From Alishewanella jeotgali KCTC 22429 (GTDB lineage Bacteria; Pseudomonadota; Gammaproteobacteria; Enterobacterales; Alteromonadaceae): DNA of 64,000 bases. Made by a program: the position numbers and the translations under genes. Location: contig NZ_AHTH01000002.1 in the NCBI RefSeq assembly GCF_000245735.1, forward strand, positions 1 through 64,000, given 5' to 3'. The stretch's first letter is position 1. Each line of letters starts with the position of its first letter. This document shows positions 12,368 to 46,538 of the stretch, piece after piece. The notes beneath the pieces were generated by a model. That model was given only the letters and a program-made list of their open reading frames with translations. It was not told the DNA's origin and made no database searches.

Positions 12368-12401
12368 TGCGACGTATTTTGTCTTAGTAAGAGGTTAGAC
12401 T
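12368..12401 (+). promoter_or_regulatory. Regulon palindrome and -10 upstream of sirtuin copy 1
   Basis: Palindrome TGCGAC-GTATTTT-GTCTTA (12368-12386), then 9 bp, then the hexamer TAGACT (12396-12401). No -35 consensus is present. The same arrangement occurs at nine other promoters in the window. Confidence 0.75.
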
Positions 12402-12460
12402 GCCGTCACGATTAACTCCATCGTCTGATATAGCGTTTATTTAATGAGTAGGAGAGTACA

Positions 12461-13192
12461 TTGAATCAACAAGCAACCAAAATCGTGATTATTAGTGGCG
12501 CTGGTATCAGCGCTGAGAGTGGCTTAGCGACCTTTCGCGATCCCGATGGCTTATGGCAGCAATATGCTCTGGAAGACCTGGCCACCCCACAAGCCTTTGC
12601 GCGTAACCCTGCATTAGTGCATCGCTTTTATAATTCGCGGCGCATACAAGCAGCGAAAGCCGAGCCCAATGCAGCACATTTAGCGATTGCCAAGTTAGAG
12701 CAAGCCTTTAACGTGGTGGTAGTAACACAAAATGTTGATGATTTACATGAGCGGGCAGGGTCGAGCAAGGTTCTTCATCTGCATGGCAAACTTAATGAAG
12801 CTCGCAGCAGCAGAAATCCAAATCTGATTGAAGTTATCGGTCAGCGCGAATTAAAAGTGGGAGAGCTCGCCGCTGATGGCTCAGCGCTACGCCCTAATAT
12901 TGTCTGGTTTGGCGAAGAGGTACCCGCCATGGAGCCTGCCATTAAAGAGATCGCCAGTGCCGATAAAATTTTAGTTGTCGGCACTTCACTACAAGTTTAT
13001 CCCGCTGCATCATTACTATTCTATGCACGCAAGGGAGCAGAAAAAGTACTGATTAACCTGGAAGCCACCGATAATGATGCCGGCTATCAATTTATACAAG
13101 GAAAGGCGGCTACGGAAGTACCGAAGTTGGTGGAGAAGTGGTTGGCCAAGCAAGAATGGTTTGATCCTAAGTCAAAACAAACTGGCATTTGA
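12461..13192 (+). CDS. Sir2-family NAD-dependent deacylase, copy 1 (zinc-less)
   Basis: A 243-residue sirtuin. NAD-binding GAGISAESG and FRDPDGLW (residues 12-31), TQNVDDLHERAG (about 89-100), the catalytic-histidine motif LHLHGKL and the VGTSLQVYPAASLL loop are all present, so NAD chemistry is likely intact. The segment that normally holds four zinc-binding cysteines has none. Start is TTG with AGGAGA upstream; the aligned TTG is also the start in copy 2. The last ~17 residues (after KWLAKQ) differ from copy 2 because the repeat ends here. It is expressed from a regulon-type promoter. Substrate could be an acylated or ADP-ribosylated protein, or free NAD; the sequence does not decide. Confidence 0.88.
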   Translation: MNQQATKIVIISGAGISAESGLATFRDPDGLWQQYALEDLATPQAFARNPALVHRFYNSRRIQAAKAEPNAAHLAIAKLEQAFNVVVVTQNVDDLHERAGSSKVLHLHGKLNEARSSRNPNLIEVIGQRELKVGELAADGSALRPNIVWFGEEVPAMEPAIKEIASADKILVVGTSLQVYPAASLLFYARKGAEKVLINLEATDNDAGYQFIQGKAATEVPKLVEKWLAKQEWFDPKSKQTGI

Positions 13193-13271
13193 AAAGCAAT
13201 TGCTGCTGGAAAATGGCTGTTGATTTCGGTAATGTCGGACCAGTTGCTACTGCCGGGCTAAATCTGTTCTA

Positions 13272-14033
13272 ATGCAGTTACATATTCTACAGGGCTATAT
13301 TCAGCATATTTATCTGGTGCAGCATAACGATAGTTTAATGCTGCTCGATGGTTGTAGTCGTGCTGATATCGCTACGGTAACGGATTTTATTCAGCAGCAA
13401 CTGGGTTTGCCGTTGGAGGCGTTAAAGCTGATTATTGTGACCCATATGCATCCGGACCATGCGGGTGGTGCACATAAGCTCAGGCGTTTAACCGGCGCCC
13501 GTATTGCCAGCCACCCCAAAGCACGGCGCTGGTATAGTGGCCTGTTGGGCCGCACCGCGCATCTGATTGATGTTAGCCTGACCTGGTGGGTTGCTACCCG
13601 GCTGGGTAAGCCCAAGCGGCATATTTGGTATAACCCGCTGTTAAAACCAGACTTGTTATTATTGGACGGGCAACAGGTACCAGACTTTGCTGAGTGGCAA
13701 GTGCTGTACACTCCGGGCCATACCGATCATGATTTATCCTTGCTGCATCTGCCAACCAGGCAATTGTATATCGCTGACCTAATCGTATCGGTTAAAAAAC
13801 GGCTGGTACCGCCATATCCGGTGTGTCACCCGAACCAATATAAGCAATCATTGCAGCGTGTGCAGGACCTTGCACCTAGCAAGATCTATTTTGCCCATCT
13901 GCCGGCACGTGCCGCTGAGAGTATCGACTTTGCCGCGATACTAGCGCAGGCACCAACCTTACCAAAAAATCATTGGCACTCGATGAAAAACCGTATCTTA
14001 CACACGCTAGGTCGACAAAACCGGTCGCATTAA
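13272..14033 (+). CDS. MBL-fold metallohydrolase
   Basis: A 253-residue metallo-beta-lactamase-fold protein. The metal motif is THMHPDHAGG (about residues 56-65), the second-shell histidine is in LYTPGHTDHD, then the aspartate in YIADLIVS and a final histidine in YFAHLPA. This is the glyoxalase-II-like hydrolase pattern; many relatives cleave thioesters or other esters. No ribosome site is obvious. It follows the sirtuin by 79 nt on the same strand and may be cotranscribed, but it is outside the repeat. Specific substrate unknown. Confidence 0.85.
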   Translation: MQLHILQGYIQHIYLVQHNDSLMLLDGCSRADIATVTDFIQQQLGLPLEALKLIIVTHMHPDHAGGAHKLRRLTGARIASHPKARRWYSGLLGRTAHLIDVSLTWWVATRLGKPKRHIWYNPLLKPDLLLLDGQQVPDFAEWQVLYTPGHTDHDLSLLHLPTRQLYIADLIVSVKKRLVPPYPVCHPNQYKQSLQRVQDLAPSKIYFAHLPARAAESIDFAAILAQAPTLPKNHWHSMKNRILHTLGRQNRSH

Positions 14034-14139
14034 GCCTGGTCGTTGTCACTGGCTGTAATAATAATGTTCTGAAACAAACTTTGGCGTTTTGGTTTTTTGC
14101 GCAATAAGTTGTGCATTAAAAACTAATGCGCAAAATTTA

Positions 14140-15164: not shown

Positions 15165-15167
15165 ATC

Positions 15168-16560: not shown

Positions 16561-16593
16561 TGCGACTTAAATTGTCGCATGCTTCTATATTCT
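16561..16593 (+). promoter_or_regulatory. Regulon palindrome and -10 upstream of WYL-1
   Basis: TGCGAC-TTAAATT-GTCGCA (16561-16579) has perfect 6-bp arms and is the most symmetric site in the window. TATTCT lies 8 bp downstream (16588-16593; the other sites have 9). It reads toward the WYL-1 gene but 361 nt away, so it would give a long leader. Autoregulation is the simplest reading. Confidence 0.65.
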
Positions 16594-16953
16594 GATCTTA
16601 AAGGTTTGGATTTCTATTGTAATTGGTAGCATTTTAAAACTGCGTCGCAGACGATTGCCAATACAGATGGAGCAATTACACCATTGTTGCAAAGCCACAA
16701 AGTCCAGTTTGGCAGTTCAGTATTAGTGCATATCTGTGCAGCGCCAGTTTTACTTTAGAGTAGTTTGAAGCGACGGGATTGCAATTAGCAAAGGCATTAC
16801 CAAAAGCATCGCAGAACCTTCAAGGCGTGTCGATAAAACCAGATTATGCTGAACAATTTGTGTTACTCCTGTTAGTGTGAGATTTAGCAGTCAATCGAGT
16901 TAACTTACTGTTTTGTATATAAACTATGTAATATCGTAATCATAGGAATTGAT
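16594..16953 (+). other. Leader or gene relic ahead of WYL-1
   Basis: 360 nt between the promoter-like palindrome and the regulator start. Short open stretches interrupted by stops suggest a decayed gene, but none is recognisable. Contains an extra TGCGTCGCA near 16640, half-site-like but without the paired arm. Confidence 0.4.
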
Positions 16954-17958
16954 ATGTCAGCATCCCCAAGGCAGAACACCGTTGCCCGTCAGTGGCAACT
17001 GTTAAAGCTTATTCCGACTCGGGCACCAGGATTGGAAGCCAGACTTTTAACACAGCAATTACAGGATGCCGGTTTTAGTGTATCTAAGCGTACAGTTGAG
17101 CGTGATTTGTTGGAGCTCTCATTGCTGTTTCCATTACAGTGCAACGAAAAAAGCAAACCTTACGGTTGGTACTGGATGCAGGATGCCAGCCTGGATATTC
17201 CCGGCGTCACTCTAGCTGAAGCGATGAGTCTTACATTGGTCGAAACTCAACTTCGTCAGTTATTGCCAACACCGCTTTTTGATAGTTTGCAAGCCCGCTT
17301 TAATCTGGCAAAAAGTAAACTGAAAGCATTGGATTCGATGAATGTCGGCGCACGCTGGCCGAATAAGGTTGCGTCTGTATCAGCAGGCATGCAATTGTTA
17401 CCACCCAAAATAGACGCCGACTTGTTACAAAAAGTACAACAAGCGTTGCTAGAGGATAAACAGCTGGACGTTAGTTATCATGCCTTGCACCAGAGTGCAG
17501 TGAAACATTATCGGTTAAACCCGCTAGGGTTAATCCAGCGTGGTCAGATAAGTTACCTGATAGCCTCGGCTGAGCCTTATTGCGACCCGCTACGTTTTGC
17601 CATTCATCGTTTTCAGCAAGTGGAAATAACCGAATACTCATCAGTGATACCTAAAGAGTTTAACCTACGAGGCTATCTGGCTAAAGGTGCGATGGAGTTT
17701 AGCGAAGGTGAAACCATAAAGCTCGAACTTACGGTAAAACCAGTATTAGCTAACTTGTTGTTGGAAACACCACTTTCAGCCGACATGAGCTGCGACGAGC
17801 TGGTAAATGGTGATTACCACATCAGAGCAACGGTACATAAAGGCTGGCAGCTGAATTTATGGTTGATGTCGCAAAGTGATTATTTAACCGTGTTAGCGCC
17901 GCAAGAGATGCGGGAAAATATCAAGCAACAGTTGGCAGAGGCATTGGCTAAGTATTAA
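16954..17958 (+). CDS. WYL-domain transcriptional regulator 1
   Basis: A 334-residue WYL regulator. The N-terminal winged helix (residues 8-60, RQWQLLKLIPTRA then SVSKRTVERDLLELS) is followed by the WYL domain with KHYRLNPLGLIQRGQISYLIAS (about 188-210; the classical W-Y-L is G-Q-I-S-Y-L-I here) and FAIHRFQQVE, and a C-terminal WCX extension ending in a short helix. WYL domains can bind nucleic acid or nucleotide ligands and control damage or phage-defence genes. The start has AGGA 7 nt upstream. It is paralogous to the regulator at 37190. One or both probably bind the palindrome described at ten promoters. Confidence 0.93.
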   Translation: MSASPRQNTVARQWQLLKLIPTRAPGLEARLLTQQLQDAGFSVSKRTVERDLLELSLLFPLQCNEKSKPYGWYWMQDASLDIPGVTLAEAMSLTLVETQLRQLLPTPLFDSLQARFNLAKSKLKALDSMNVGARWPNKVASVSAGMQLLPPKIDADLLQKVQQALLEDKQLDVSYHALHQSAVKHYRLNPLGLIQRGQISYLIASAEPYCDPLRFAIHRFQQVEITEYSSVIPKEFNLRGYLAKGAMEFSEGETIKLELTVKPVLANLLLETPLSADMSCDELVNGDYHIRATVHKGWQLNLWLMSQSDYLTVLAPQEMRENIKQQLAEALAKY

Positions 17959-18014: not shown

Positions 18015-18683
18015 ATGAGGAGTTTTAACCTAAGCACCTTAGTGAAGTCTGACTATAACAAGAGGGCAATCGACATTGCGCTAAAGTTTATTGCGGATCA
18101 AGACGCATTTTTTATGACCATTGATAGTTACTCTGGTAATGGCGATGGCATGACGCATTTAATGATGAGTTTGGCGGGCGAACTTCACCGCACAGGTATG
18201 AAGGTTGTCAACTACAGTGCAGAGCGGTTGCTTAGAGAAGCTGCAGCAGATGCCAGCCAATTGGATCGACTGGCTGACAGTGATTGCCTGCTACTTGATG
18301 ATATAAATTTCTTATTTGATAAGTGCACTTCAGTAAGCGAATCTATTTTCGAAATGCTGGGCACCAGAAATATTACCGGTAAAAAAACGATCTGCACGTT
18401 AGCGATAGCGGCTAATGACATCGAAAACACAATACCTCAATCGTATCTCTGCTTATTGTATTCAGGAACGGTATGTCGACTGAGGGCTCCAACATTTGCA
18501 GATAAATTTAGAATAGCCATGGCGAAAATTGATCACCTTGGCATTCCTTTCAATGCGAGCTTTAATGACATCATTGAACAGGCAGGAAATATAAGAGAGT
18601 TAGAAGGTAAGCTAACCCAATACGCTGCGTTACAAAGTATCCAGCGCAAAGCGCAAACTGGTGCCAAGAGCAGTTATGACTAA
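18015..18683 (+). CDS. DnaA-like AAA+ protein with degenerate Walker A
   Basis: A 222-residue protein resembling DnaA domain III. SYSGNGDGMTHLMMSLAGEL aligns with the DnaA GxxGxGKTHL loop, but the P-loop lysine is Met and the preceding glycine spacing is altered. VVNYSAERLL, LLLDDINFLFDK (Walker B, both Asp kept) and the closing NIRELEGKLTQYAAL (DnaA VRELEGAL sensor-2 region) support the assignment. It has no domain IV for DnaA-box binding. It may act as an ATP-independent adaptor or partner, as Hda-like or DnaC-like proteins do. It follows WYL-1 by 56 nt on the same strand and ends at a terminator. Confidence 0.75.
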   Translation: MRSFNLSTLVKSDYNKRAIDIALKFIADQDAFFMTIDSYSGNGDGMTHLMMSLAGELHRTGMKVVNYSAERLLREAAADASQLDRLADSDCLLLDDINFLFDKCTSVSESIFEMLGTRNITGKKTICTLAIAANDIENTIPQSYLCLLYSGTVCRLRAPTFADKFRIAMAKIDHLGIPFNASFNDIIEQAGNIRELEGKLTQYAALQSIQRKAQTGAKSSYD

Positions 18684-19545: not shown

Positions 19546-19593
19546 ATGATAAGTTCATATGCGACACAATATGACGCAGATGTTCTATATGCT
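19546..19593. promoter_or_regulatory. Bidirectional regulon palindrome between the PP2C and UDG-like genes
   Basis: TGCGAC-ACAATAT-GACGCA (19560-19578). On the plus strand TATGCT follows 9 bp later (19588-19593). On the minus strand TATCAT follows 8 bp later (19551-19546). One site may therefore drive both divergent genes. The plus-strand -10 lies inside the longest PP2C reading frame, which sets the real PP2C start downstream. Confidence 0.7.
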
Positions 19594-19621: not shown

Positions 19622-20407
19622 ATGCCTTACCAGCTGGCGATATTACAACTAAGTGGTTTTAACGCGACAGGTGCTAAATGGTCGCAGCAAGATGCTCTCG
19701 GCTATGCTGCTGCCGGTGAGGTGCCAATGCTACTGCAGCAAGATCAAGTTAATCAAGTGCTGGAGCTGCCATCGCCAAACAGTTTATTGCTGGCCGCTGA
19801 TGGGGTATCTGCCAGCCCAGCAGCGGCTGTAGCAAGCTCCAGCGTTGTTAAGTATTTGCTACAGCACTGGCCTGGTACAGGGTTTTCCAGTAGGCAGTTA
19901 CGTCTGGCCCAACAATATCTTGTCGATACGCTCGGCCGCAAACGGCAGAGTTTTGGGGCAGCAACTACCATAGCGGCATTGCATTTAAGCGCAGAGCGCT
20001 TTGTGGCAATTAATGCCGGTGATAGCCGTATTTGGCGTTTGCGAAATGGTCAGTTGCAACAACTGAGTGAGGATCATGACTGGCAGAATGATAGCGCAGA
20101 GCTAAAACAACAAACCGGCCTGGCTCAATGCTACCGGGCGTTAACCAGTTATCTGGCTGCCGATAGTGAGGCGGCTGATTTTACTGTTGCGGTATCAGAT
20201 GGCGCCTTGCAAACCGGCGATCAATTTGTGCTCACCACAGACGGTGTGCATGACCTGGTTACACCAGAGGAGTTAGCTGAGATGTTTGCTGTTGCTGATA
20301 GCGCCACAGCGTTGCAACAACTGCAGAGCCTGATATTGGAGCGGGGCGCAACAGACAATGCTAGTTTATTGTGGCTGCGGCCGATGGCTAACGCTGGTGA
20401 GTGCTAA
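19622..20407 (+). CDS. PP2C-type serine/threonine phosphatase
   Basis: A 261-residue PP2C phosphatase. Metal-binding aspartates are visible in LLLAADGVSAS, in FVAINAGDSRIWRLRNG, in LTTDGVHDLV and in RGATDNASLL, in the correct order. It would remove phosphate from Ser/Thr of a partner, or perhaps from a nucleotide. The ATG at 19622 is chosen because the regulon -10 sits at 19588-19593, inside the longer frame from 19559, and because GGAG lies 7 nt before 19622. No dedicated kinase gene is apparent in the cluster, which is unusual for PP2C modules. Confidence 0.88.
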   Translation: MPYQLAILQLSGFNATGAKWSQQDALGYAAAGEVPMLLQQDQVNQVLELPSPNSLLLAADGVSASPAAAVASSSVVKYLLQHWPGTGFSSRQLRLAQQYLVDTLGRKRQSFGAATTIAALHLSAERFVAINAGDSRIWRLRNGQLQQLSEDHDWQNDSAELKQQTGLAQCYRALTSYLAADSEAADFTVAVSDGALQTGDQFVLTTDGVHDLVTPEELAEMFAVADSATALQQLQSLILERGATDNASLLWLRPMANAGEC

Positions 20408-20485: not shown

Positions 20486-20797
20486 TTATTTGTTTGGTGC
20501 GACCTTTAAATAGAATTGCGCCCTACGATCTTCGTTGCAGACTAACTGCGGTAGTAATAACAGGTTGCCCTGGCGCTCTAGCGGTAAAAAGGTACCTTGC
20601 ATCATAAGCAATAAACGTGACTGATCTTCATTGGCCAGCTGATCTGCAAGTTGTTGTAAAATTTGCGTGTTGTAAGCTGCGGTTAACACAAACCAGCTTA
20701 GTTCATCCTGGCCTTGGGTAAGTACGTAGTCTTCTTCAGCCGCTATAGTGGGCAGGAGTAAAAAGTTACTAATACGTTCCAGCGCAATTGTGACCAT
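20486..20797 (-). CDS. Hypothetical 103-aa protein of the regulon
   Basis: A 103-residue protein rich in Leu and Gln with no domain I recognise. It has GAGGAT 6-7 nt before its ATG and its own regulon-type promoter, which is the strongest evidence that it is real and part of the cluster. No signal peptide or membrane segment. Confidence 0.65.
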   Translation of the reverse strand: MVTIALERISNFLLLPTIAAEEDYVLTQGQDELSWFVLTAAYNTQILQQLADQLANEDQSRLLLMMQGTFLPLERQGNLLLLPQLVCNEDRRAQFYLKVAPNK

Positions 20798-20826: not shown

Positions 20827-20860
20827 AGCATAACGTCGCAGAGCGGCAGAATGTGTCGAG
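20827..20860 (-). promoter_or_regulatory. Regulon palindrome and -10 upstream of the 103-aa gene
   Basis: Read on the minus strand: CTCGAC-ACATTCT-GCCGCT (20860-20842), 9 bp, TATGCT (20832-20827). The downstream arm has two differences from GTCGCA, but the -10 and spacing match exactly. Confidence 0.55.
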
Positions 20861-23678: not shown

Positions 23679-23712
23679 CGCGACATATCTTGTCGCGACA
23701 CTGCCTTATGCT
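23679..23712 (+). promoter_or_regulatory. Regulon palindrome and -10 upstream of moxR
   Basis: CGCGAC-ATATCTT-GTCGCG (23679-23697) with perfect arms, then 9 bp, then TATGCT (23707-23712). The predicted transcript would begin near 23719, about 20 nt before the ATG, leaving room only for the AGAGG ribosome site. The tight fit supports the promoter call. Confidence 0.8.
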
Positions 23713-23738
23713 GGGTTATCTACTAGTCAGAGGTGTCT

Positions 23739-27998: not shown

Positions 27999-28013
27999 AG
28001 CGTATTCCCATTA

Positions 28014-28784: not shown

Positions 28785-28823
28785 CGGCATTTCTCCTGGC
28801 GGGCGATTTCGTAGTAACTCCCA

Positions 28824-28857
28824 AGTGTAAAGTGTGCCTGCGACAAGATGTGTCGAA
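28824..28857 (-). promoter_or_regulatory. Regulon palindrome and -10 upstream of the metallophosphatase operon
   Basis: On the minus strand TTCGAC-ACATCTT-GTCGCA (28857-28839), 9 bp, TACACT (28829-28824). It lies 33 bp from the plus-strand site of the divergent nuclease operon, so each operon has its own palindrome. Confidence 0.75.
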
Positions 28858-28890: not shown

Positions 28891-28924
28891 CACGACGCAA
28901 TTTGTCGCATTGTCCTGATAGTCT
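28891..28924 (+). promoter_or_regulatory. Regulon palindrome and -10 upstream of the nuclease/helicase operon
   Basis: CACGAC-GCAATTT-GTCGCA (28891-28909), 9 bp, TAGTCT (28919-28924). The leader to the nuclease ATG is about 165 nt, AT-rich, with no gene recognised. Confidence 0.75.
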
Positions 28925-31719: not shown

Positions 31720-31720
31720 T

Positions 31721-34911: not shown

Positions 34912-34945
34912 CTCGACGCAATTTGTCGCAGCTACCCGGCATACT
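34912..34945 (+). promoter_or_regulatory. Regulon palindrome and -10 upstream of the tandem AAA+ gene
   Basis: CTCGAC-GCAATTT-GTCGCA (34912-34930), 9 bp, CATACT (34940-34945). Inner sequence is the same as that of the 28891 site. The ATG follows 28 nt after the -10, enough for a ribosome site. Confidence 0.75.
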
Positions 34946-34972: not shown

Positions 34973-37069
34973 ATGCCGATAGCAAAGCGTAAACCACGTC
35001 GTCACCAGCCAGAGTTAGATGCAGCTGCCAATTTTGAGCATCTGCCGATTGGCTTGTTGTGGAACTATCGTTTAGTTCTGGAGTGTAATGTACTCAGCCG
35101 GTTCTTTGATCAGGATGGCGAGCTGGATCGCGAAGATGCACAAAGTGTAGGCATTCCGGATCAGGCGATGGAGTTTGATCGCGCCCAGATGCAGCGCTAT
35201 CTAAAACAGCAAATCAAAGTACTGGAGCGGCAGGTTGAACAGGGCGTTCCCTTGTCATTGCGCAGTAATGCGCAACAACTGGCGCAGTTGGTTGGTTTAA
35301 ACGACACTGAGCAACAGGTGCTGATCTTTGTGGCGTTGGTCAAGACCGAGCAAATCGTTAACAACCTCTGCGAGATGATTCGGGTTAAGCATCTGAGTAG
35401 CCTGTGTAAGCTGGTAGCGAAGGCGCTAAATTTACCGCTAGCTGATATCAAAATGGCCTTAAGCGATAAATCAGCCTTACTTACCACCGGCATATTAGAG
35501 CTGGAAATTCACAGTTTTGGTAACACCATTGCCGATTGCTTTGACTTTCTGAGTCAGAAATTCAGTGAATTACTGCTATCTGACAACGCCGAACCGACAG
35601 CGTTTTTTAAAGAAATTATCCAGCAAGCGCCGGCATCTACTCTTAAGCTTGAGCATTTTGCCCATGTGCAACAAGACTTGGATATCTTATTACCTTATTT
35701 GCAGCACAGCGTAGCGACCAGCAAAGCTGGGGTGAATGTCCTGCTGTATGGCCAACCTGGCACCGGCAAAACCGAACTGTCGCGGTTATTGGCACAGCAG
35801 CTCAATGTCACTTTACATGAAGTCAGTTGCCAGTGTGATGATGGCGATGCCATCGCCGGTAATGCCAGAATGCGGGCATACCGCTTGGCGCAGCGTTGTT
35901 TGGCCAATACCCAAAGCCTGTTGCTATTTGATGAGGTAGAGGATGTGTTTATCCAAAATCCGTTTGCCCGTCAGTCTGAGCAGCGTAAAGGCTGGTTAAA
36001 CCGGATGCTGGAGCAAAACCCGGTTCCGACCTTATGGTTAACCAACAATCATCAGATTATTGATCCAGCCTTTATCCGCCGCTTTGATCTGGTTATTGAA
36101 ATGCCAGTACCACCACAAGCACAACGCGCTGAGTTTTTGCATCAGGCTGCAGGTGGCATCTTAACGCCTAATGCTGCCATGCAGCTGGCGGCACACCCAA
36201 GGCTAACGCCAGCAGTAATCGATCGTGCCAGTAAAGTGGTACAAAGCATTCAGCTTGATACTGATAAGTATGATAAAGCGACGCTACTGCAGCGCGTGAT
36301 GCAGCAAACCTTATCCGCGCAGGGGCATCAGCTACCCTTTGCTAAGGGCCAGGAATTAGGTGATGTGTACGATCCAGGCTTAATTAATACTGAAGCGAAT
36401 TTGAGCGTGATTGTTGAGGGTTTAAAGATGCAGGGCTCTGGCCGCTTATGTTTGTATGGCCCACCGGGTACCGGTAAAACTGCCTTTGCGCATTATCTGG
36501 CCAAACAACTGGCTAAGCCGTTAATTATTAAACGCGCCTCGGATCTGTTAAGCCCCTATCTTGGTGAAACAGAAATGGCGGTGGCGGCAGCTTTTAATCA
36601 GGCGGCAAAGCAGCAGGCTATTTTGCTTATTGATGAAGTGGATAGTTTTTTACAGGATCGCAGTAAGGCACGGCAAAGCTGGGAGGTGAGTATGGTTAAT
36701 GAGTTACTCACACAGCTTGAACGCTTTGACGGACTCTTTATTGCCAGCACTAACCTGATGCACAATTTAGATCAGGCGGCACTGCGGCGCTTTGATCTAA
36801 AAGCCTGCTTTAGTTACTTAAAACCGGCACAGGCGCAGCAGTTATTGCAGGCTCATTGCCAGCAATTAGGCTTAAATGTTTGTGATACAAGCTTGCAACG
36901 TGTCGCTAGCAGCAGCGTGTTAACCCCTGGTGACTTTAATGCAATACGCCGGCAGGCACGGTTTCAGCCATTTGCCAGTGCGCAACAGTTTGTAACAGCA
37001 CTCTTGACCGATGTGGCGTTAAAAACTCAGCACCAGACTGAAAGCAAAGGGATAGGTTTTTTGCAATAA
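34973..37069 (+). CDS. Tandem AAA+ ATPase (two ATPase domains)
   Basis: A 698-residue protein with two AAA+ modules. Domain 1: Walker A GQPGTGKTE (about 261) and Walker B LLLFDEVEDVF (about 317), with RRFDLVIEMP as the arginine region. Domain 2: Walker A GPPGTGKTA (about 497), Walker B ILLIDEVDSFL (about 551) and LRRFDLKACF. Both sites look complete, as in Cdc48- or SpoVK-like double-ring remodellers, but the ~230-residue helical N-terminal part is not a known substrate-binding domain. GAGGAG precedes the ATG. It ends at a hairpin and faces WYL-2. Confidence 0.85.
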   Translation: MPIAKRKPRRHQPELDAAANFEHLPIGLLWNYRLVLECNVLSRFFDQDGELDREDAQSVGIPDQAMEFDRAQMQRYLKQQIKVLERQVEQGVPLSLRSNAQQLAQLVGLNDTEQQVLIFVALVKTEQIVNNLCEMIRVKHLSSLCKLVAKALNLPLADIKMALSDKSALLTTGILELEIHSFGNTIADCFDFLSQKFSELLLSDNAEPTAFFKEIIQQAPASTLKLEHFAHVQQDLDILLPYLQHSVATSKAGVNVLLYGQPGTGKTELSRLLAQQLNVTLHEVSCQCDDGDAIAGNARMRAYRLAQRCLANTQSLLLFDEVEDVFIQNPFARQSEQRKGWLNRMLEQNPVPTLWLTNNHQIIDPAFIRRFDLVIEMPVPPQAQRAEFLHQAAGGILTPNAAMQLAAHPRLTPAVIDRASKVVQSIQLDTDKYDKATLLQRVMQQTLSAQGHQLPFAKGQELGDVYDPGLINTEANLSVIVEGLKMQGSGRLCLYGPPGTGKTAFAHYLAKQLAKPLIIKRASDLLSPYLGETEMAVAAAFNQAAKQQAILLIDEVDSFLQDRSKARQSWEVSMVNELLTQLERFDGLFIASTNLMHNLDQAALRRFDLKACFSYLKPAQAQQLLQAHCQQLGLNVCDTSLQRVASSSVLTPGDFNAIRRQARFQPFASAQQFVTALLTDVALKTQHQTESKGIGFLQ

Positions 37070-37189: not shown

Positions 37190-38203
37190 CTAATCCTCAG
37201 CGTAAAGCGCTGCGGCCCCGCGGATTTTATCAACTATTTCCTGCCTAAGCTCGGGTGGAGATACCACCTGAATAGCCAAAGAGTGAGATAAAATCCACCA
37301 CTGTAATTGCCAACCATCAATAACAGTGGCGCTGAGTTCAAACCAGCCGTCGGCAGCCGGAGTAAGCTGCATATCTTCTGCTAACGGCGCTTCATGCAGA
37401 ATTTTAGCCAGATGCGGGTTAACCCGGGCCACAAACTGTATGGCCATGCCACTGCCAAACTGCATAGCGCCCGCGTTAATATACTGCGCCAGTGAAAAGC
37501 CATCAGGTATTTTTATTGTTGTATCGGTTAGTGTTAAGGCATTAAAGCGATGTAATGCGAACAAGCGCTGATCGGTATAGTCGCCAATTGACGCCACCAG
37601 GTAAGTAATGTGGCCGCGTTGTACCAACCCCAGCGGGTTAATCTGATACTCTTTTTGGACCTGATCGTGGATTGCCGTATACACCGCAGCCAGTTGTTTG
37701 CCCTCGGTCATCGCCTGTTGCACTGCTTCGTAATGTTCAGCCGGCGTTGCGGGTGGCGTTAAGGGTAAAGCGGGTGAGACCACGGCAATTTTATCTGCCA
37801 ACAAGCCTTTGCTGTTGCTGCCATCCAACGCATCAATTTTGCGTTTAGCCAAAGCAAAGCGATCTTTTAAGCCTTGCAGCATAGTATCTGGCAGGATAGT
37901 TTTTAAAGTGCCTTCAACCAGCTGTAACATCATCGCATCAGCAACGCTTACGCCAGGGATATGGCTGGTTTTATCCTCCATCCAGCGCCAATACTGGGCA
38001 TTGCCTTCTTTATTACAATAAATGGGAAAGGGGATCGACAAATCAATCAGATCTCTATCCACTGTGCGGCGGGTCACCTCAAAACCAGCGGCAGCCAGTT
38101 TGTTATGAATATCGCTAACACTAATCCCGTTTCCTTGCGAGGGGATCATCTTTAGCACTTCCCACTGGCGGCTTATCGAGGCGTTATTTTTATTTGATGG
38201 CAT
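37190..38203 (-). CDS. WYL-domain transcriptional regulator 2
   Basis: A 337-residue paralogue of the regulator at 16954. The N-terminal winged helix (SRQWEVLKMIPSQ then EVTRRTVDRDLIDLS) is followed by KEYQINPLGLVQRGHITYLVASIG (WYL region, about 190-212), FALHRFNALTL, and a C-terminal extension ending with a short helix. The two proteins align over their whole length and share the IPGV(S/T)xAxAM segment. ATG 38203 has AAGGAG 6 nt upstream; the longer start is rejected. It is transcribed divergently from sbcD, from which a palindrome lies 144 nt away. Two related WYL proteins could act together, as PafB and PafC do in actinobacteria. Confidence 0.93.
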   Translation of the reverse strand: MPSNKNNASISRQWEVLKMIPSQGNGISVSDIHNKLAAAGFEVTRRTVDRDLIDLSIPFPIYCNKEGNAQYWRWMEDKTSHIPGVSVADAMMLQLVEGTLKTILPDTMLQGLKDRFALAKRKIDALDGSNSKGLLADKIAVVSPALPLTPPATPAEHYEAVQQAMTEGKQLAAVYTAIHDQVQKEYQINPLGLVQRGHITYLVASIGDYTDQRLFALHRFNALTLTDTTIKIPDGFSLAQYINAGAMQFGSGMAIQFVARVNPHLAKILHEAPLAEDMQLTPAADGWFELSATVIDGWQLQWWILSHSLAIQVVSPPELRQEIVDKIRGAAALYAED

Positions 38204-38346
38204 CGCTGACTCCTTGCAAATCCACTTTGCCGTCATCTTAATGGCTGACTTAACAAATGAAAAGACTAAAATATCCCTAAAATCAGCACTTAACCATCTT
38301 GTTATCCGGTAGTATCTGCATAACGTTTTAGCTAAACCACATTTTG

Positions 38347-38380
38347 CTCGTCACATTTTGTCGTAGGCCTATTTTAGACT
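38347..38380 (+). promoter_or_regulatory. Regulon palindrome and -10 upstream of sbcDC
   Basis: CTCGTC-ACATTTT-GTCGTA (38347-38365), 9 bp, TAGACT (38375-38380). The left arm differs by one base from the consensus CGAC. No matching -10 is seen on the strand facing WYL-2. Confidence 0.7.
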
Positions 38381-38411: not shown

Positions 38412-39638
38412 ATGAAAATCCTCCATACTTCCGACTGGCATTTAGGCCAGAATTTTTACACCAAAAGCCGCAAAGCGGAGCATCAGGCATTTTTAGACTG
38501 GCTACTGCAGCAGATTACCGCACAGCAAATTGATGCGGTTATTGTGGCCGGGGATATTTTTGATACCGCTACACCGCCCAGTTATGCCCGTGAGATGTAT
38601 AACCAGTTTGTGGTAGATATGCATAAAGCCGGTTGTAATTTAATAGTGCTGGGTGGCAATCATGACTCTGTTTCAGTGCTTAACGAAACCAAATCGCTAT
38701 TAAAGCAACTGAATGCCTATGTTGTCGCCAATACCAGTGAAGATGCGGCAGAGCAGGTGATCCCGCTTTGTAACCGTGCCGGCGAAGTGGGCGCGATCCT
38801 CTGTGCCGTGCCCTTTATTCGGGCCCGCGATATACTGGAAAGTAACGCCGGTGACAGCGCCGATGCAAAGCGCGAGGCCCTGGCCTTGGCGATCAAACAG
38901 CATTATCAGCGGCTTTACGAAGAAGCACAGCAACAACAGGCCGCACTACCCAATTGGGTACCGATTATTGCCACTGGTCATCTGGCTGCTGTGGGGGTTA
39001 CAGCTTCCGAAAGTGTACGCGAAATCTATATCGGCACCTTAAATGGCTTGCAAGCCGACACCTTTCCGCCAGCAGACTATATTGCGCTTGGCCATATTCA
39101 CCGGCCACAGCTGGTAAGTAAAAATCGACCCATTTACTATTCGGGTTCACCCATTGCGCTAAGCTTCGATGAGCTTTCGCATAAAAAACAAGTCAATGTG
39201 CTGGAATTTACTACCAATAAAACACTGCAGCTGGACTTACTTGAAGTGCCGACATTTCAGCCTTTAGCTGTATTAAAAGGCGATCTGATGGCATTAGAAC
39301 AGTCCTTGCAGCAGTATGCTGACCATAGCGGCGTACCAGTTTGGCTCAGCATTGAAGTAACAGGGCAGGACTTTTTAAGTGATATCCAGCAAAAGATCCA
39401 GCAACTTACACAAGACCTACCCGTAGAGGTACTGCAAGTTAAACGCAGCCGCAAGAACGTGCAGACTGACACCACTAAAACGGCCGAGCGCACCTTAACT
39501 GAGCTTACTCCAGAAGAAGTATTTGCCAAACGCCTGGCACAGCAAGATTTTACCAAGGATCCACAGCAGCCAGAGCGCTTAACCCTGCATTTTGCGCAAA
39601 CCCTTGCCAGCTTGCACGAACAGGAGGCTAACGTATGA
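38412..39638 (+). CDS. sbcD: SbcD exonuclease subunit
   Basis: A 408-residue Mre11-type phosphoesterase. Motifs: TSDWHLGQNF (residues 5-14), VAGDIFDTATPPS, LGGNHDSVS, TGHLAAVG and ALGHIHRPQ, the full calcineurin-like set for two metals. It would degrade DNA ends and cleave hairpins together with SbcC. It overlaps sbcC by 4 nt (ATGA) and sits behind a regulon-type promoter, so this sbcDC is part of the regulon rather than an isolated housekeeping pair. Confidence 0.95.
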   Translation: MKILHTSDWHLGQNFYTKSRKAEHQAFLDWLLQQITAQQIDAVIVAGDIFDTATPPSYAREMYNQFVVDMHKAGCNLIVLGGNHDSVSVLNETKSLLKQLNAYVVANTSEDAAEQVIPLCNRAGEVGAILCAVPFIRARDILESNAGDSADAKREALALAIKQHYQRLYEEAQQQQAALPNWVPIIATGHLAAVGVTASESVREIYIGTLNGLQADTFPPADYIALGHIHRPQLVSKNRPIYYSGSPIALSFDELSHKKQVNVLEFTTNKTLQLDLLEVPTFQPLAVLKGDLMALEQSLQQYADHSGVPVWLSIEVTGQDFLSDIQQKIQQLTQDLPVEVLQVKRSRKNVQTDTTKTAERTLTELTPEEVFAKRLAQQDFTKDPQQPERLTLHFAQTLASLHEQEANV

Positions 39639-42600
39639 AGATTTTAACCCTACGCCTGAAAAACCTGAACTCGTTAAAAGGTGAGTGGAAAATCGACTTT
39701 ACTGCCGCGCCCTTTGCCGACAGTGGCCTGTTTGCGATCACCGGGCCAACCGGGGCCGGTAAAACCACTTTATTAGATGCGATCTGCCTCGCGCTCTATC
39801 ACGAAACGCCGCGCCTGGGCGCCATTAATAATAACAATAATGAAATTATGAGCCGCGGTACCGCCGAGTGTTTGGCAGAAGTGGAATTTGAAGTAAAAGG
39901 TATCGCTTATCGCGCGTTTTGGAGCATGCGTCGTGCCAGAAATAATGTGGACGGGCAGCTGCAGGCGGCTGCAGTAGAATTAGCGGAAGTTGCCACCGGT
40001 AAAGTGCTGGCCAATCAGATTAAGCCCAAATTAGATGAAGTGGAGCGTTTAACCGGGCTGGATTTTGGCCGTTTTACAAAATCAATGTTGTTATCGCAAG
40101 GTGCTTTTGCTGCATTTTTAAATGCAAGTGAGAGTGAACGCGCCGGGTTATTAGAGCAGCTTACCGGTACTGAAATTTATGGTTTTATTTCACAGCGGGT
40201 GTACGAGCGTTACACTGCAGCTAAACAGCAGCTGCAGGCCTTGCAGCAACAAGCCCAGCATATTGAACTGTTAAGTGAAGCACAGCAGCAAGAACTGCAG
40301 GATGCCCGTCAAGCCTTAATCACTGCCAACCAGCAAGCAGAGCATCAACTCAAAGCGCTGCAACAACAACTTAATTGGTATCAGCAGCAACAAGAGCTAC
40401 TGAGTCAGCAAGCAAGTGCCCGGCAGCAAGTAACTGAGGCACTGCAAGCAGAGCAGGCAGCTGCTGCGGATCTAAGCCGCCTGAGTTTAAGCGAACCAGC
40501 AGAAATACTGCGTACGCCCTGGCATTTATTGCAGCAGGCAGAGCAACAACTTGCCGCCTTACAAGCCGAAGCCAGCCAATTAATCGCGCAGCAGCAAAAG
40601 CTAGGCGAAAATGTTGCTCAAGCACAGCAGGTGCAACAGCAGACTGAGCAGCAATTTAACCAAGTGCGCCAGGCACAGCACCAGCATGAGCTGCTGATTA
40701 TGGATAAGGTATTGCCGCTGGATAGCCAGATCCAAGCTATGACTGAGCAGCTTAAACAAACGCAGCGGCACCAGCAGCAAAGCCAGCAGCAGCTATCTGA
40801 GTTAACTTTAGACCATAGTCGTTTAAGCCAGGCGTTATCCGTTACCCAACAACAGCTGCAAAGCACACAGCAATTTTTAGCTGAACAGCAGCACGATGAC
40901 GCTTTAGTAAGCCTGTTACCGGCCTGGCAGCAACGGCAGCAGTATTTGCAGCAGCAACAGCATGAAATTCAAGCCGTAAAAGCACAGCTGCCAACGCTGG
41001 AACAGCAAATTAACCAACAACAGCAACAACATACGGGTTTAACTACCCAAGCTCAGCAAGCGTCAACAGAGCTTAGTCAGGCCCAGCAAGCGGCCGAGCA
41101 AGCTAGCCAGCAGCTGTCGGCGCTGCACCAAGATGGCGATTTAACCCAGATCCGAGAGCGGCTAAAACAACAGCAAACCTGGCTTGATGCAGTAAAATAT
41201 GCACAAAGCACTCAGCAGGCTTATGGCCAACTTGCGCAGCAGCAAAACGGCTATCAGCGACAAGCCCAGGATTATCAGCAGCAAGCTGAGCAATTAGTGA
41301 CCCAGCAAGCGGCATTAACTGCTCAGGTAGATCTGGCCAAGCAGCTTGTTCATAGCCTCGGGCAAACTATTGATACAGAAAGCCAGCTGGCCAGCTACCG
41401 GCAACAACTCTGTGACGGCGAAGCCTGCCCACTGTGCGGCGCCACTGAGCATCCAATGCGAGCACACAGTATTGCGGTACCGGAAATTATTCAGCAGCAA
41501 GCGCAGGCCAAAGCGCAGTTAGATAGCCTGACAGGTCAGTTACAGGCCACCACACTGAATATTGCCAAACTTGAACAGCAGCAAAGCTTATTGGCTGCAA
41601 GCGAGCAGCAAGCTCAGGAAAAAAGCGCTGAGCTCTATCAACAATTTAGTAGCTGGTGCCTGAATTTACCGGCAGCGCTGCTGGCGTTCTGGCAAGCAGC
41701 GATTGCAGGCAAGGGACAGCATGTCGTTTCGGAGGCTGCCTTAATACTGCAGCAGTTAGCCGAGGCAGACGAGCAGGGCGCCCGGGCGCTTGTGCCACAC
41801 CCCGAGTTAATGACCGCGCTTAATACAGCGCTGCAGCAGGCCATCGAATTGGATAACGCACATTTAACGCAGCTATTGCAGGCACAGCAACAGCTAGCTC
41901 AGGCGCAGGCTGCGTTAAACACTAAGCAACAAACCCATACAGCGCTGACGAATCAACTGGCATTACTTGCGCAGCAACAGCACAGCACCCAAGCTGAGTT
42001 AAGCCGGCAGCAGCAACAGCTTAGTAAGTTAGAGCAACAAAGCGCGGCAGCCTTAACGGCACTTGTGCAAGATATTGCGCAGCAAGGCTTTAGCCTAAAC
42101 AACAGCCTAAGCCTGCCGGAGCTGGCCAGTTGGCTAGCACAAAAAACACAAGATCTAACGCGTTATCAGCAATACCAGCAGCAAGGACAAAAACTGACAC
42201 AGCAGCTTGCCGAACAGCAGAATCAGCTGTCTGGCCTGAGCGCACAACATCAAGCCGCAGAGCAAGGTGCAGCGCACCTGGCGCAAGGGCTTAACCGCTT
42301 AACAGAAAGCCTGACTAACCTAACTGCCGAGCGACAGGCACTTTACGGTAATAAGGTGGTAAAAGACGAAACGCAGGCCTTTACCGTGCGCGTACAACAG
42401 GCCGAGCAGCACCTGTCTCATGCTCAGCAGCTGTTACGCCAGGCCGAGCAGGCGCAGCAACACAACCAAACGGCTGCGGCGCTTAATCAAAGTAAAACCG
42501 CCGAGCAGCAAACCAGGCTTGCTGAACAAAGACGCGCATGGCAACAACAACGTGAAGCACAGCAGTTTAGCAGTAATGAGGCCTTTTTAGCGGCGTTATT

Positions 42601-43426
42601 GCCAGCAGAGGAGCGTAGCCGCTTAACGCAGCTAAAACAGCAGCTCTCTGAAGCAAAAACCACCGCACAAACGCTACTGTCGCAGGCCAGCAGCAAGCTT
42701 GAGGCGCTAATGGCACATACTGAAGCCGCAAACTGGCAGCAGCAAGTACCGGATGAGGTGGCGCAGCAGCACAATAACCTGCAACAACAGCGTGAACAGC
42801 AATTGCAGCGCCTGGGAGAAATGCAACAACAGCTACAGGAAGATGCGAAGCGCCGGCAACAACATGCGGCACTGCTCACCGAGATCACCAAAGCAGAGCT
42901 GGCCTTTGTTGACTATGACGCGATGAATGACTTAATCGGTTCCGCCAAAGGCGATAAATTCCGTAAATTTGCCCAGGGTTTAACGCTGGATAACCTGATT
43001 TATCTGGCCAATAAACAGCTGGAGCGCTTACACGGGCGCTATGCGCTAAGCCGCAAAAATACCGAAGGTTTAGAGTTATCAGTACTGGATACCTGGCAGG
43101 CCGATACGATACGCGATACCAAAACGCTATCGGGTGGTGAAAGCTTTTTAGTGAGCTTAGCCTTAGCACTGGCGTTATCTGATTTGGTTAGCCATAAAAC
43201 CAGTATCGATTCGCTGTTTTTAGACGAAGGCTTTGGCACCCTGGATGCGGAAACTCTGGATATTGCTCTTGACGCGCTGGATAACTTAAATGCTACCGGT
43301 AAAACAATAGGGGTAATTAGCCATATCGAAGCCATGAAAGAGCGTATTCCGGTGCAGCTTAAAGTGACCAAAAAAAGTGGCTTAGGCATCAGTGAGCTTA
43401 ACAAAGAGTTTCGGGTAGAGGCATAA
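39635..43426 (+). CDS. sbcC: SbcC exonuclease ATPase subunit
   Basis: A 1263-residue Rad50/SMC-like ATPase. Walker A GPTGAGKTT (residues 38-46) starts the head; a long antiparallel coiled coil follows, with the zinc-hook CPLC near residue 598; the second half of the head has the signature LSGGESFLVSLALALALSDL (about 1163) and Walker B LFLDEGFGTLD (about 1194). The coil is exceptionally rich in glutamine, giving long cag/caa codon runs that look like repeats in DNA but are coding. It works with SbcD as a DNA-end nuclease. A hairpin follows. Confidence 0.95.
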   Translation: MKILTLRLKNLNSLKGEWKIDFTAAPFADSGLFAITGPTGAGKTTLLDAICLALYHETPRLGAINNNNNEIMSRGTAECLAEVEFEVKGIAYRAFWSMRRARNNVDGQLQAAAVELAEVATGKVLANQIKPKLDEVERLTGLDFGRFTKSMLLSQGAFAAFLNASESERAGLLEQLTGTEIYGFISQRVYERYTAAKQQLQALQQQAQHIELLSEAQQQELQDARQALITANQQAEHQLKALQQQLNWYQQQQELLSQQASARQQVTEALQAEQAAAADLSRLSLSEPAEILRTPWHLLQQAEQQLAALQAEASQLIAQQQKLGENVAQAQQVQQQTEQQFNQVRQAQHQHELLIMDKVLPLDSQIQAMTEQLKQTQRHQQQSQQQLSELTLDHSRLSQALSVTQQQLQSTQQFLAEQQHDDALVSLLPAWQQRQQYLQQQQHEIQAVKAQLPTLEQQINQQQQQHTGLTTQAQQASTELSQAQQAAEQASQQLSALHQDGDLTQIRERLKQQQTWLDAVKYAQSTQQAYGQLAQQQNGYQRQAQDYQQQAEQLVTQQAALTAQVDLAKQLVHSLGQTIDTESQLASYRQQLCDGEACPLCGATEHPMRAHSIAVPEIIQQQAQAKAQLDSLTGQLQATTLNIAKLEQQQSLLAASEQQAQEKSAELYQQFSSWCLNLPAALLAFWQAAIAGKGQHVVSEAALILQQLAEADEQGARALVPHPELMTALNTALQQAIELDNAHLTQLLQAQQQLAQAQAALNTKQQTHTALTNQLALLAQQQHSTQAELSRQQQQLSKLEQQSAAALTALVQDIAQQGFSLNNSLSLPELASWLAQKTQDLTRYQQYQQQGQKLTQQLAEQQNQLSGLSAQHQAAEQGAAHLAQGLNRLTESLTNLTAERQALYGNKVVKDETQAFTVRVQQAEQHLSHAQQLLRQAEQAQQHNQTAAALNQSKTAEQQTRLAEQRRAWQQQREAQQFSSNEAFLAALLPAEERSRLTQLKQQLSEAKTTAQTLLSQASSKLEALMAHTEAANWQQQVPDEVAQQHNNLQQQREQQLQRLGEMQQQLQEDAKRRQQHAALLTEITKAELAFVDYDAMNDLIGSAKGDKFRKFAQGLTLDNLIYLANKQLERLHGRYALSRKNTEGLELSVLDTWQADTIRDTKTLSGGESFLVSLALALALSDLVSHKTSIDSLFLDEGFGTLDAETLDIALDALDNLNATGKTIGVISHIEAMKERIPVQLKVTKKSGLGISELNKEFRVEA

Positions 43427-44566: not shown

Positions 44567-45700
44567 ATGTCGCTATGTTCTACAGAGCTTGATATCTTTA
44601 CACAAAAATTTGACACTACCTATGAAGACAAAGCGTTAAGTGTCCGTGGACAATTTTTGTGTTCTTATCCGCTTAACAAACTCAAAAATATTACTCTCGA
44701 TGAGTATGTAATCGGCAAGGGCACAGCGTCATTTTGTGCGTGTGTCGAAGCAAAGACCAAGGCTTGGGCAAATATGCAAGGTGCAACTGCAAACAAGTTT
44801 GGTATTTACTTCGGCAAGACAAAATCTGATCCAACAATGAAATACCGCTTTACTCAGAAGTTTGGAAAGACAAAAAATGAAGCTTTTAATGGAGTTAAGG
44901 ACGCACTACTAGATCTTATCGAAGCAGGTAGGTCGAAAAGCTTTAGCGAGATTGACGATAACCCACTTTCTCAGATGTTCAAGGCCAAGATATTGAGCCT
45001 TTACTTTCCAGAGCTGTACTTGAATATATGCAGTTCCGAACATCTCAAAAAAATTGCTTTGGATATGAAAATTCCGGAGCAACAATTCGTGAGCGAGTAT
45101 CAGCATTTGTTAGTCGAAAGAAAAATGGCGAACACGATCACTAAGAAGTGGAGCAACCCAAAATTCATGTCATTTCTTTACGCTAAGTTTATTCGTGGCG
45201 ATTTGAACACAACTCCGTCAGCGGCAGTCAAAAAACCTCGACAACAAGTCAGGCAGAGAGTTAATTTCGAAGACATTGCTGCAAACCGAGATGCCATAGG
45301 TAAGGTAAGTGAAGAGTTCGCCATCGAATGGGAAAGAAATCGATTAATCGGCCTCGGCTATCAAGAGTTGGTAGCGAAAATAGAAGATAGACGTGACATT
45401 CCATCCTATGGATATGACTACCTTTCTTTTAGTGCACCAGGGCAGGAAAGATACATTGAGGTTAAATCAGTCGGCCGGGATAGAAAAGGAAACTGCTACC
45501 GGTTTTATCTTTCAGAGAACGAACTTTCGACTTCCAACTCTGATGAGAACTGTAATCAATACTACTTTTATCTAGTGCTCTTTGGTAAGGATGGAAAACC
45601 ATGCGACCTTTTGGCGAGACACGCCAAAGAGTTTTATACGAGTAGTGAAATAAGTCCCTGTGCGTATGTGGTGAGGTTTGATCTTGAAGACCGTAGTTAG
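44567..45700 (+). CDS. DUF3883-type protein (putative PD-(D/E)XK-like domain)
   Basis: A 377-residue protein. The C-terminal part (about 245-377) has GYDYLSFSAPGQERYIEVKS, then RFYLSENEL, which is the DUF3883 pattern; the D...ExK arrangement resembles a nuclease core. The N-terminal ~200 residues (MSLCSTELDIFTQKFDTTYEDK onward, cited in part) are not recognised. CGGAGAAC precedes the ATG. The gene is AT-rich compared with sbcC, suggesting separate acquisition. DUF3883 proteins often sit in restriction loci. The flanking 44304-44566 holds nothing else I can see. Confidence 0.7.
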   Translation: MSLCSTELDIFTQKFDTTYEDKALSVRGQFLCSYPLNKLKNITLDEYVIGKGTASFCACVEAKTKAWANMQGATANKFGIYFGKTKSDPTMKYRFTQKFGKTKNEAFNGVKDALLDLIEAGRSKSFSEIDDNPLSQMFKAKILSLYFPELYLNICSSEHLKKIALDMKIPEQQFVSEYQHLLVERKMANTITKKWSNPKFMSFLYAKFIRGDLNTTPSAAVKKPRQQVRQRVNFEDIAANRDAIGKVSEEFAIEWERNRLIGLGYQELVAKIEDRRDIPSYGYDYLSFSAPGQERYIEVKSVGRDRKGNCYRFYLSENELSTSNSDENCNQYYFYLVLFGKDGKPCDLLARHAKEFYTSSEISPCAYVVRFDLEDRS

Positions 45701-46157
45701 CCATTTCGCTCGTGACGGGTTTGCAAGACAATAAATCTGATTGCTTTACGCTGCATTTCAAGTGGCAAATTGTGGCGACGGCACATCCGTATTTTGCTCG
45801 TAGTTGACCACTACAAACTTTACCCTTACAGCGGAAGATTTGGCGCACCAAGTAGCAGCCCTTTAAGCTCAGCGCCATGTATAAAATAACTGCGCCAACA
45901 CTTTGGCACTGATAATAAAAATAGTCTGCCTGAAAAACATACACTGAACACTTACACAGTGTGGCGCTATTTTGGTAACGGCGTATTCTGTAGCGACAGG
46001 ACGTAATGTGTCGCTGTAGTTAACACTTCTGGTGTGAATTGCGGTTGATAAAGGGGTAGGTGCCGGATGCACCAACACGGAACAGGACAGGGCATGATGC
46101 CGATAATATTACAGGTAAGTTTGGGCAGGGATGCCAAACGCATTACAGGAGGCGACC

Positions 46158-46475
46158 ATGAATATGCTGCAACAGGATCTGTTTTTAATTACGCTGGAAT
46201 CGCAATTCCGTGACATCTTTCAAACCAGTAAGGCTGGTAGAGATAATAGTGAACAGCGGCTGCGGGCTCAGGGTTTTATCCATGCTGGTGAACTGTTAGA
46301 GCTTTGTACACGCCAACAGGTACAGCAGTTAATGGAGCGAGTGCATCTGGAGGTATTTGGTATTCACATTAGTGAGCGGCAACCTGCCGAGGCCCGGCGT
46401 CGGCAACAGGCATTACAGCTTGGCGATTATGATTACTTTGATGAGCCGGCATTTATTCGATCACAGCGAGAGTAA
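46158..46475 (+). CDS. Hypothetical 105-aa protein, repeat copy 2
   Basis: Same 105-residue protein as at 12021 with three substitutions that I count (Lys to Arg, Gln to Glu, Arg to His). The same AGGAGGCG ribosome site precedes the ATG. Conservation of the frame argues for function. Longer upstream readings are artefacts. Confidence 0.7.
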   Translation: MNMLQQDLFLITLESQFRDIFQTSKAGRDNSEQRLRAQGFIHAGELLELCTRQQVQQLMERVHLEVFGIHISERQPAEARRRQQALQLGDYDYFDEPAFIRSQRE

Positions 46476-46504
46476 AGCACTGAAGCCAACAACAATAGAT
46501 AAAC

Positions 46505-46538
46505 TGCGACTTATTTTGTCGTAGTAAGAGGTTAGACT
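46505..46538 (+). promoter_or_regulatory. Regulon palindrome and -10 upstream of sirtuin copy 2
   Basis: TGCGAC-TTATTTT-GTCGTA (46505-46523), 9 bp, TAGACT (46533-46538). It is a slightly better palindrome than in copy 1. Confidence 0.75.

Follow-up and report, generated by a model that had tools for sequence, protein, structure and literature searches.

Ten promoters with a common palindromic operator in a WYL-encoding island of Alishewanella jeotgali

Genes and promoters of the island

The first 64,000 nucleotides of contig NZ_AHTH01000002.1 of Alishewanella jeotgali KCTC 22429 (hereafter the window, 64 kb of a genome of 3.83 Mb in 65 contigs) contain an island that encodes two WYL-domain regulators, WYL-1 and WYL-2, and carries ten promoters of one architecture: a palindrome, nnCGAC-N7-GTCGnn; a gap of 9 base pairs (bp) in nine promoters and 8 bp in the tenth; and a -10 hexamer of the form (T/C)AnnCT (TAGACT three times, TATGCT three times, and TACACT, TAGTCT, CATACT and TATTCT once each). 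All ten lie within a 34-kb stretch, and inspection of the letters bears out the original prediction, made from the window alone, as to palindromes, gaps and hexamers alike. Its claim that no -35 consensus is present also holds: TTGACA is matched at no more than three of six letters at a spacing of 15-18 bp at every one of the ten sites, and the site at 38347 reaches four of six, but at a spacing of 19 bp. If transcription is assumed to start 7 nucleotides (nt) past the hexamer, the palindrome lies at about -40 to -22, and the predicted 5' leaders measure 14-53 nt at eight of the ten promoters, 164 nt ahead of the nuclease gene and 354 nt ahead of WYL-1.

At the left end, operator TGCGACGTATTTTGTCTTA, followed by 9 bp and TAGACT (12368..12401, plus strand), precedes the first of two Sir2-family deacylase genes (12461..13192, plus strand; PF02146, 4e-44). 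Operator TGCGACTTAAATTGTCGCA, with the gap of 8 bp and TATTCT (16561..16593, plus strand), faces WYL-1 here and an ftsZ-like gene in relatives. It was predicted as the site before WYL-1 and is indeed present, but an ftsZ-like remnant (16594..16953, plus strand; recognized by blastn to loci L113, L115 and L117, and about 650 bp short relative to L115) stands between the two; the 354-nt leader thus results from deletion of most of the gene that relatives retain. WYL-1 itself is a WYL-WCX regulator of 334 amino acids (16954..17958, plus strand; PF13280, PF25583), adjoined by a 222-residue protein consisting solely of a DnaA AAA+ domain (18015..18683, plus strand; PF00308, 1.5e-7; TIGR00362, 5e-19, below cut-off). 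Operators TGCGACACAATATGACGCA (19560..19593, plus strand), CTCGACACATTCTGCCGCT (20827..20860, minus strand, palindrome at 20842-20860) and CGCGACATATCTTGTCGCG (23679..23712, plus strand), each followed by 9 bp and TATGCT, precede respectively a PP2C-type phosphatase gene (19622..20407, plus strand; PF13672, 6e-10), the gene of a 103-residue protein of no assigned family (20486..20797, minus strand; no match in Pfam or NCBIfam) and a moxR-vWA pair that encodes a MoxR-type AAA+ protein and a DUF2201 protein with metallopeptidase-like and vWA-like parts (23733..26125, plus strand; PF07728, PF13203, PF09967).

Further along, operator TTCGACACATCTTGTCGCA with 9 bp and TACACT (28824..28857, minus strand, palindrome at 28839-28857) precedes a calcineurin-like metallophosphatase gene, followed by that of a 593-residue protein without an assigned family (26217..28790, minus strand; PF00149, 8e-18); operator CACGACGCAATTTGTCGCA with 9 bp and TAGTCT (28891..28924, plus strand) precedes genes for a PD-(D/E)XK nuclease and a UvrD/AddA-like helicase-nuclease (29095..34873, plus strand; PF12705, PF00580; TIGR02785, 1.6e-69, below cut-off); and operator CTCGACGCAATTTGTCGCA with 9 bp and CATACT (34912..34945, plus strand) precedes the gene of a double AAA+ ATPase with an IetA-like second domain (34973..37069, plus strand; PF00004; PADLOC IetA, 5e-47). 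WYL-2, a regulator of 348 residues with winged helix-turn-helix (wHTH), WYL and WCX parts (37190..38236, minus strand; PF13280, PF25583; structure modelled, best PDB match DriD), is divergent from sbcD and sbcC (38412..43426, plus strand; NF008206, over cut-off; PF13558), before which stands operator CTCGTCACATTTTGTCGTA with 9 bp and TAGACT (38347..38380, plus strand). Operator TGCGACTTATTTTGTCGTA, with 9 bp and TAGACT (46505..46538, plus strand), duplicates the one at 12368 and precedes the second Sir2-family gene (46589..47287, plus strand; PF02146, 1.5e-44).

A position matrix built from all ten sites scores them at 31.9-37.0 bits, or 23.1-32.3 when each is left out in turn; the best additional match in the window, at 15.3 bits, is the site at 19560 read on the opposite strand, after which no distinct place exceeds 12.3 bits. 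In 20 first-order Markov copies of the window, which served as background, the mean count of matches of at least 16 bits was 0.05, with a single outlier at 22.2 bits. Direct repeats (11771-13192 and 45909-47287) comprising a small reading frame, a leader and the Sir2 gene flank the island at both ends. The long repeat proper (11771-12298 and 45909-46435) has an offset of 34,137 bp, and the sites at 12368 and 46505 lie in its continuation at the same offset, so that the ten predicted sites, all present, amount to nine independent ones. A weaker relative of the operator, CAGGAC-N7-GTCGCT, had been proposed in both repeat leaders; it does occur there (11859 and 45997), but at 12.3 bits and with the hexamer absent it hardly rises above what chance gives (0.45 matches of 12 bits or more expected per 64 kb) and was rejected. 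The LexA/SOS regulon was likewise rejected: SOS boxes at up to two mismatches number three in the 64 kb, against 2.11 expected, and none lies at the ten promoters. An Rfam search gave no matches.

Other observations concern the island as a whole. Matches to defence models in it are IetA and GajB; the vWA protein, searched across the class, has matches in 52 of 274 genomes; and a gene of the island's flank is matched in five of 21 genomes of the genus, with high identity in one besides the window's own genome. Near a third WYL gene, on contig 51 (C51), the small frame of the flanking repeats has a relative at 78%.

The operator across the genome and beside WYL genes

The strict pattern TGCGAC-NNANNTT-GTCGCA-N9-TANNCT, at up to three mismatches, has nine matches in the whole genome, seven of them inside the island, and its reversed control has none, in agreement with the predicted enrichment; the sites at 16561, 20842 and 38347 escape it, having a different gap or too many mismatches. 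Searched by itself with two mismatches allowed, the palindrome gives 23 rows, nine in the island (eight distinct sites), and the 14 elsewhere are background, the control giving 12. Sites suspected at recA or lexA did not materialize: the ten-site matrix finds nothing above 6.5 bits at the fetched loci, and both genes were rejected as members of the regulon. The third WYL gene has no nearby site at the strict threshold. Candidates off the island are C61:180937 (below 6 bits), C38:22423 (8.4 bits) and C45:11291 (L213; 24.0 bits), the last a good match that lies inside a resolvase-like frame next to an integron-type integrase (both recognized by eye). The regulon is most likely confined to the island. 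A possible eleventh site, C56:63148 (L219), has a palindrome much like those of the island and scores 25.5 bits at a gap of 8 bp with a poor hexamer, CACACC; no frame of 60 amino acids runs over its palindrome, which is downstream of a frame that by eye is DnaB-like.

Relatives of the WYL proteins were collected by protein similarity alone, blind to the palindrome, which gave 79 loci, 61 of them (L100-L160) with a nearly full-length WYL match. Around these 61, the palindrome with a 7-nt spacer occurs 80 times, in 48 loci, as against 3-10 sites in 3-8 loci for each of ten other spacers; the loci are not fully independent, L118 and L119, and L132 and L138, resembling near copies. A search for WYL-2 in 295 genomes of the order (E 1e-30) was positive in 19, the window's own included, and at the 18 other loci the N7 palindrome is found 18 times, in 14 of them, with 0-4 sites for other spacers of 3-13. 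Alignment A1, of 19 rows, omits L069. The N7 palindrome recurs beside this WYL family in Pseudomonas, Rheinheimera, Idiomarina, betaproteobacteria and Verrucomicrobia. When 59 of the 61 loci (L102-L160, the two from Alishewanella excluded) were read in both directions, the distance to (T/C)Ann(A/C)T from 78 sites in 46 loci peaked at 9 bp (36 cases) and 8 bp (19 cases), every other gap from 0 to 29 having six at most. Among 82 oriented sites (L054-L070 and L102-L162; L053, on the same contig as L129, excluded), the first gene encodes a double AAA+ protein 13 times, a WYL protein eight times, a member of a family of 127-140 amino acids seven times, and a PP2C phosphatase and an FtsZ paralogue five times each. 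As first gene was taken the first frame with 80 or more amino acids within 450 nt, a rule that favours short distances; the start of that gene lies a median of 27 nt from the hexamer, and no more than 60 nt in 66 of the 82.

Comparison with the nearest relatives shows that the sites are conserved. Those of moxR, the metallophosphatase and the double AAA+ gene are kept in both A. aestuarii and A. tabrizica, and that of sbcD in A. aestuarii; sites also stand ahead of SIR2 in both species, and in A. tabrizica the Sir2 and 103-residue protein genes lie together elsewhere on the contig that holds most of its strict matches, each with its own site. Five Rheinheimera-type loci keep the PP2C site, and five the 8-bp gap of site 16561. 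Palindrome and -10 hexamer are identical at 25 of 25 positions for the double AAA+ promoter, where the remaining intergenic sequence agrees at 149 of 243 and the 9-bp gap at six of nine; the corresponding figures are 25/25, 151/243 and 5/9 for the metallophosphatase promoter (which shares one intergenic region with the former comparison), 24/25, 61/128 and 9/9 for moxR, and 24/25, 93/134 and 5/9 for PP2C, the footprint having been computed for three of its five loci. Strict matches cluster in these species as well, five of five in A. aestuarii being on the island contig (control 2) and five of seven in A. tabrizica on one contig (control 3); eight other genomes scanned in the same way have 1-3 (control 0-3), a Verrucomicrobia metagenome-assembled genome excepted. 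This last (L138, G574) has seven strict matches on five contigs (control 1), which suggests a genome-wide regulon there.

The AddAB-like nuclease/helicase pair is absent between the metallophosphatase and double AAA+ genes of both Alishewanella relatives and therefore seems to have joined here with its own site; its relatives occur near WYL genes in four of the 79 loci. WYL-1 is matched only in part in A. aestuarii, so WYL-2 may suffice to keep the sites under selection in that species. The operon of five Rheinheimera-type loci starts with the site, the ftsZ-like gene and WYL-1, in that order. The ftsZ-like protein of L113, at 312 amino acids, matches PF00091 (5.6e-28) and PF12327, as well as TIGR00065 below its cut-off (1.4e-54), and stops at the FtsZ_C domain; this FtsZ paralogue (312-320 amino acids), under the same promoter in five relatives, is a candidate division inhibitor. 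Upstream of it, L113:5708-8899 encodes a protein of 1064 residues without a Pfam match, whose C-terminal stretch by eye resembles a tyrosine recombinase, possibly marking a mobile element.

A probable DriD-type activator and the alternatives

Both WYL-1 and WYL-2 have WYL and WCX domains over cut-off, and in WYL-2, the one modelled, N-terminal helices and a wing are visible. Searched by sequence against the PDB, WYL-2 finds chains of DriD best (2.3e-6); a profile of the family puts DriD first (4e-13 to 7e-13), with BrxR and CapW far weaker; and Foldseek with the WYL-2 model ranks full-length DriD first (2.5e-16), then PafBC, CapW and BrxR. On these matches, the family appears closer to DriD than to BrxR and CapW. 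The operator of DriD is described as ATACGAC-N7-GTCGTAT over the -35 element (PMC12340889), in promoters with weak -35 elements, and its core is that of the window's operators, CGAC-N7-GTCG. Three published DriD promoters were searched for the site. In CCNA_03891 and didA, 9 bp separate the highest-scoring site, or one tied for highest, from CAATCT and CAAGGT, respectively; the third, bapE, is a weak case, its site, which ties with two others at 7/12, being followed by 9 bp and CAAGCC. The start of the -10 element is here taken from our own alignment.

The genome scans, the N7-specific enrichment near WYL genes, the -10 distance and the conserved footprints together support the original reading, a single regulon linked to the WYL proteins, to which the DriD-type identity of the operator is added here. 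We consider it probable, at roughly 0.7, that a DriD-type WYL activator (WYL-2, WYL-1 or both) acts through the ten operators on the island's regulon. A dimer would bind CGAC-N7-GTCG at about -40 to -22, covering a -35 region that sigma-70 could hardly read, and would recruit RNA polymerase to the fixed -10 hexamer; the signal would most likely be single-stranded DNA (ssDNA) or a related nucleic acid arising from DNA damage or phage attack, and SbcCD, the AddAB-like pair, the double AAA+ protein, MoxR-vWA, PP2C, the metallophosphatase, Sir2 and WYL-1 would rise together without LexA. Activation fits the position of the operator, the weakness of the -35 region, which suits an activator, and the kinship to DriD.

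Several results weigh against this interpretation. WYL-1 by itself has no match in the PDB at E up to 0.01; in the profile search PafBC (9e-13) nearly ties with DriD; and confidence in the WYL-2 model is middling (pLDDT 74, pTM 0.44). In PafB, ssDNA binding is described as depending on a pair of arginines spaced as in RLDR, and the pair has also been mutated in SiwR; we infer that it corresponds to the RLDR pair of DriD. Where DriD has RLDR the family has ALHR or similar: the second arginine is kept in 55 of 55 members (alignment A5, 55 sequences; L145, which has a stop codon, and L148, L156, L100, L106, L119, L144 and L158 left out), and the first is alanine or valine in all 55, so that the ligand may differ from ssDNA. 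Thirteen of the 61 WYL loci have no site at threshold, and 15 further Pseudomonas loci (L164-L178), where the N-terminal segment is 51-55% identical to that of WYL-1 with only about 180 residues matched, show no excess: a laxer threshold gives them 18 N7 sites, other spacers giving 5-24. Of 38 other genomes, 18 hold a WYL-2 relative; with or without one, each has 0-3 matches to the strict pattern, like the control (0-3). The link elsewhere is therefore local to WYL genes, and the regulons look small.

It is unlikely, but the most serious alternative, that the WYL proteins repress as BrxR and CapW do, occupying the promoters until they bind a ligand, so that phage attack or damage derepresses the island. 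The fold class is the same, WYL repressors are described as guarding defence islands, and the island is defence-like in its IetA and GajB model matches; the fold matches of WYL-2 include a CapW structure containing ssDNA, so that sensing of ssDNA would suit either mode and ssDNA binding alone is no proof of activation. The described CapW sites, however, overlap the -10 element, and the repeats bound by BrxR follow immediately after the promoter, whereas here the palindrome is 8-9 bp upstream of the -10 hexamer in ten of ten cases, a distance that is also the peak at other loci; the promoters have no usable -35 element, and BrxR and CapW match less well by profile and fold. That a factor encoded elsewhere reads the palindromes, with the WYL genes as passengers, is improbable: binding of the WYL proteins to the sites is our reading of the sequence, and the third WYL gene does lack a nearby strict site, but the N7 palindrome accompanies 48 of 61 loci chosen by WYL family alone, and its core is that of an operator read by the WYL protein DriD. 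The sites are hardly likely to be copies of one repeat spread by duplication and devoid of function, for although 12368 and 46505 are duplicates and 28891 and 34912 have 18 of 19 letters in common, the flanks of the remaining sites differ by eye, and sites are kept between species while other intergenic DNA drifts (25/25 versus 149/243 and 151/243).

If a DriD-type activator is at work, a tentative extension is that the island carries a portable, private damage response, perhaps antiphage, in which a WYL activator encoded on the island responds to ssDNA or something similar and acts through one operator independently of LexA. Such a response would switch on a division block by the FtsZ paralogue ending at FtsZ_C (broken here, intact in relatives) and would add the DnaA-domain protein, SbcCD, the AddAB-like pair, the AAA+ and MoxR-vWA machines and Sir2; operons would join it by gaining a site, the route apparently taken here by the nuclease/helicase pair. 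Relatives of WYL-2 at 30-40% identity occur in ten records of a plasmid collection, some of them chromosome-sized, and in three phage records (H1-H13); relatives of the regulator are therefore carried on mobile elements.

In this gammaproteobacterium an entire local regulon is marked by the DriD operator core. The core provides a simple rule, applicable to sequence, by which candidates for induction by damage or phage can be found, uncharacterized AAA+ systems and the FtsZ paralogue included, and offers a clear test of the ligand that these WYL proteins sense.

Comparison with known WYL systems

The searchable literature describes DriD in Caulobacter, where its targets are few; the literature searched yielded no paper linking it to gammaproteobacteria, no report of this WYL family or island was recognized from titles and abstracts, and nothing relevant was found among papers listed by title on Alishewanella islands. 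For the comparison below, further papers on WYL regulators were drawn on (PMC10693628, PMC9122601, PMC9122588, PMC11804915, PMC7159879), and each system is characterized as far as those accounts describe it.

BrxR and CapW resemble the present system as WYL regulators of defence islands whose binding sites are palindromes or inverted repeats; they differ as repressors with few sites, placed over or after the -10 element, and in their weaker sequence and fold match. PafBC is likewise an ssDNA-triggered WYL activator of DNA-damage genes, close to DriD in the profile search, but it is a heterodimer in which PafB alone touches promoter DNA, at -24. SiwR of Mycobacterium smegmatis is a WYL activator of a genotoxic-stress response that uses a 19-bp imperfect palindrome between the -35 and -10 elements; unlike the island's regulators, it has a single adjacent dinB-like operon.

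DriD is the closest counterpart. It has the same CGAC-N7-GTCG core over a weak -35 element, nine nucleotides from the -10 element in our alignment; a wHTH-WYL-WCX regulator whose gene is divergent from a target operon; and targets that include a nuclease and division control. The A. jeotgali system differs in belonging to another class of proteobacteria; in gathering ten promoters in one island with none at recA or lexA; in having two paralogous WYL proteins; in a payload distinct from DriD's didA, bapE, recJ and dnaG; and in the ALHR-like sequence in place of RLDR and the -10 form (T/C)AnnCT. Apart from the presumed ssDNA-binding residues, of which the family keeps the second arginine and has alanine or valine for the first, sequence and model suggest that the testable features by which DriD is defined are present in the island of A. 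jeotgali.

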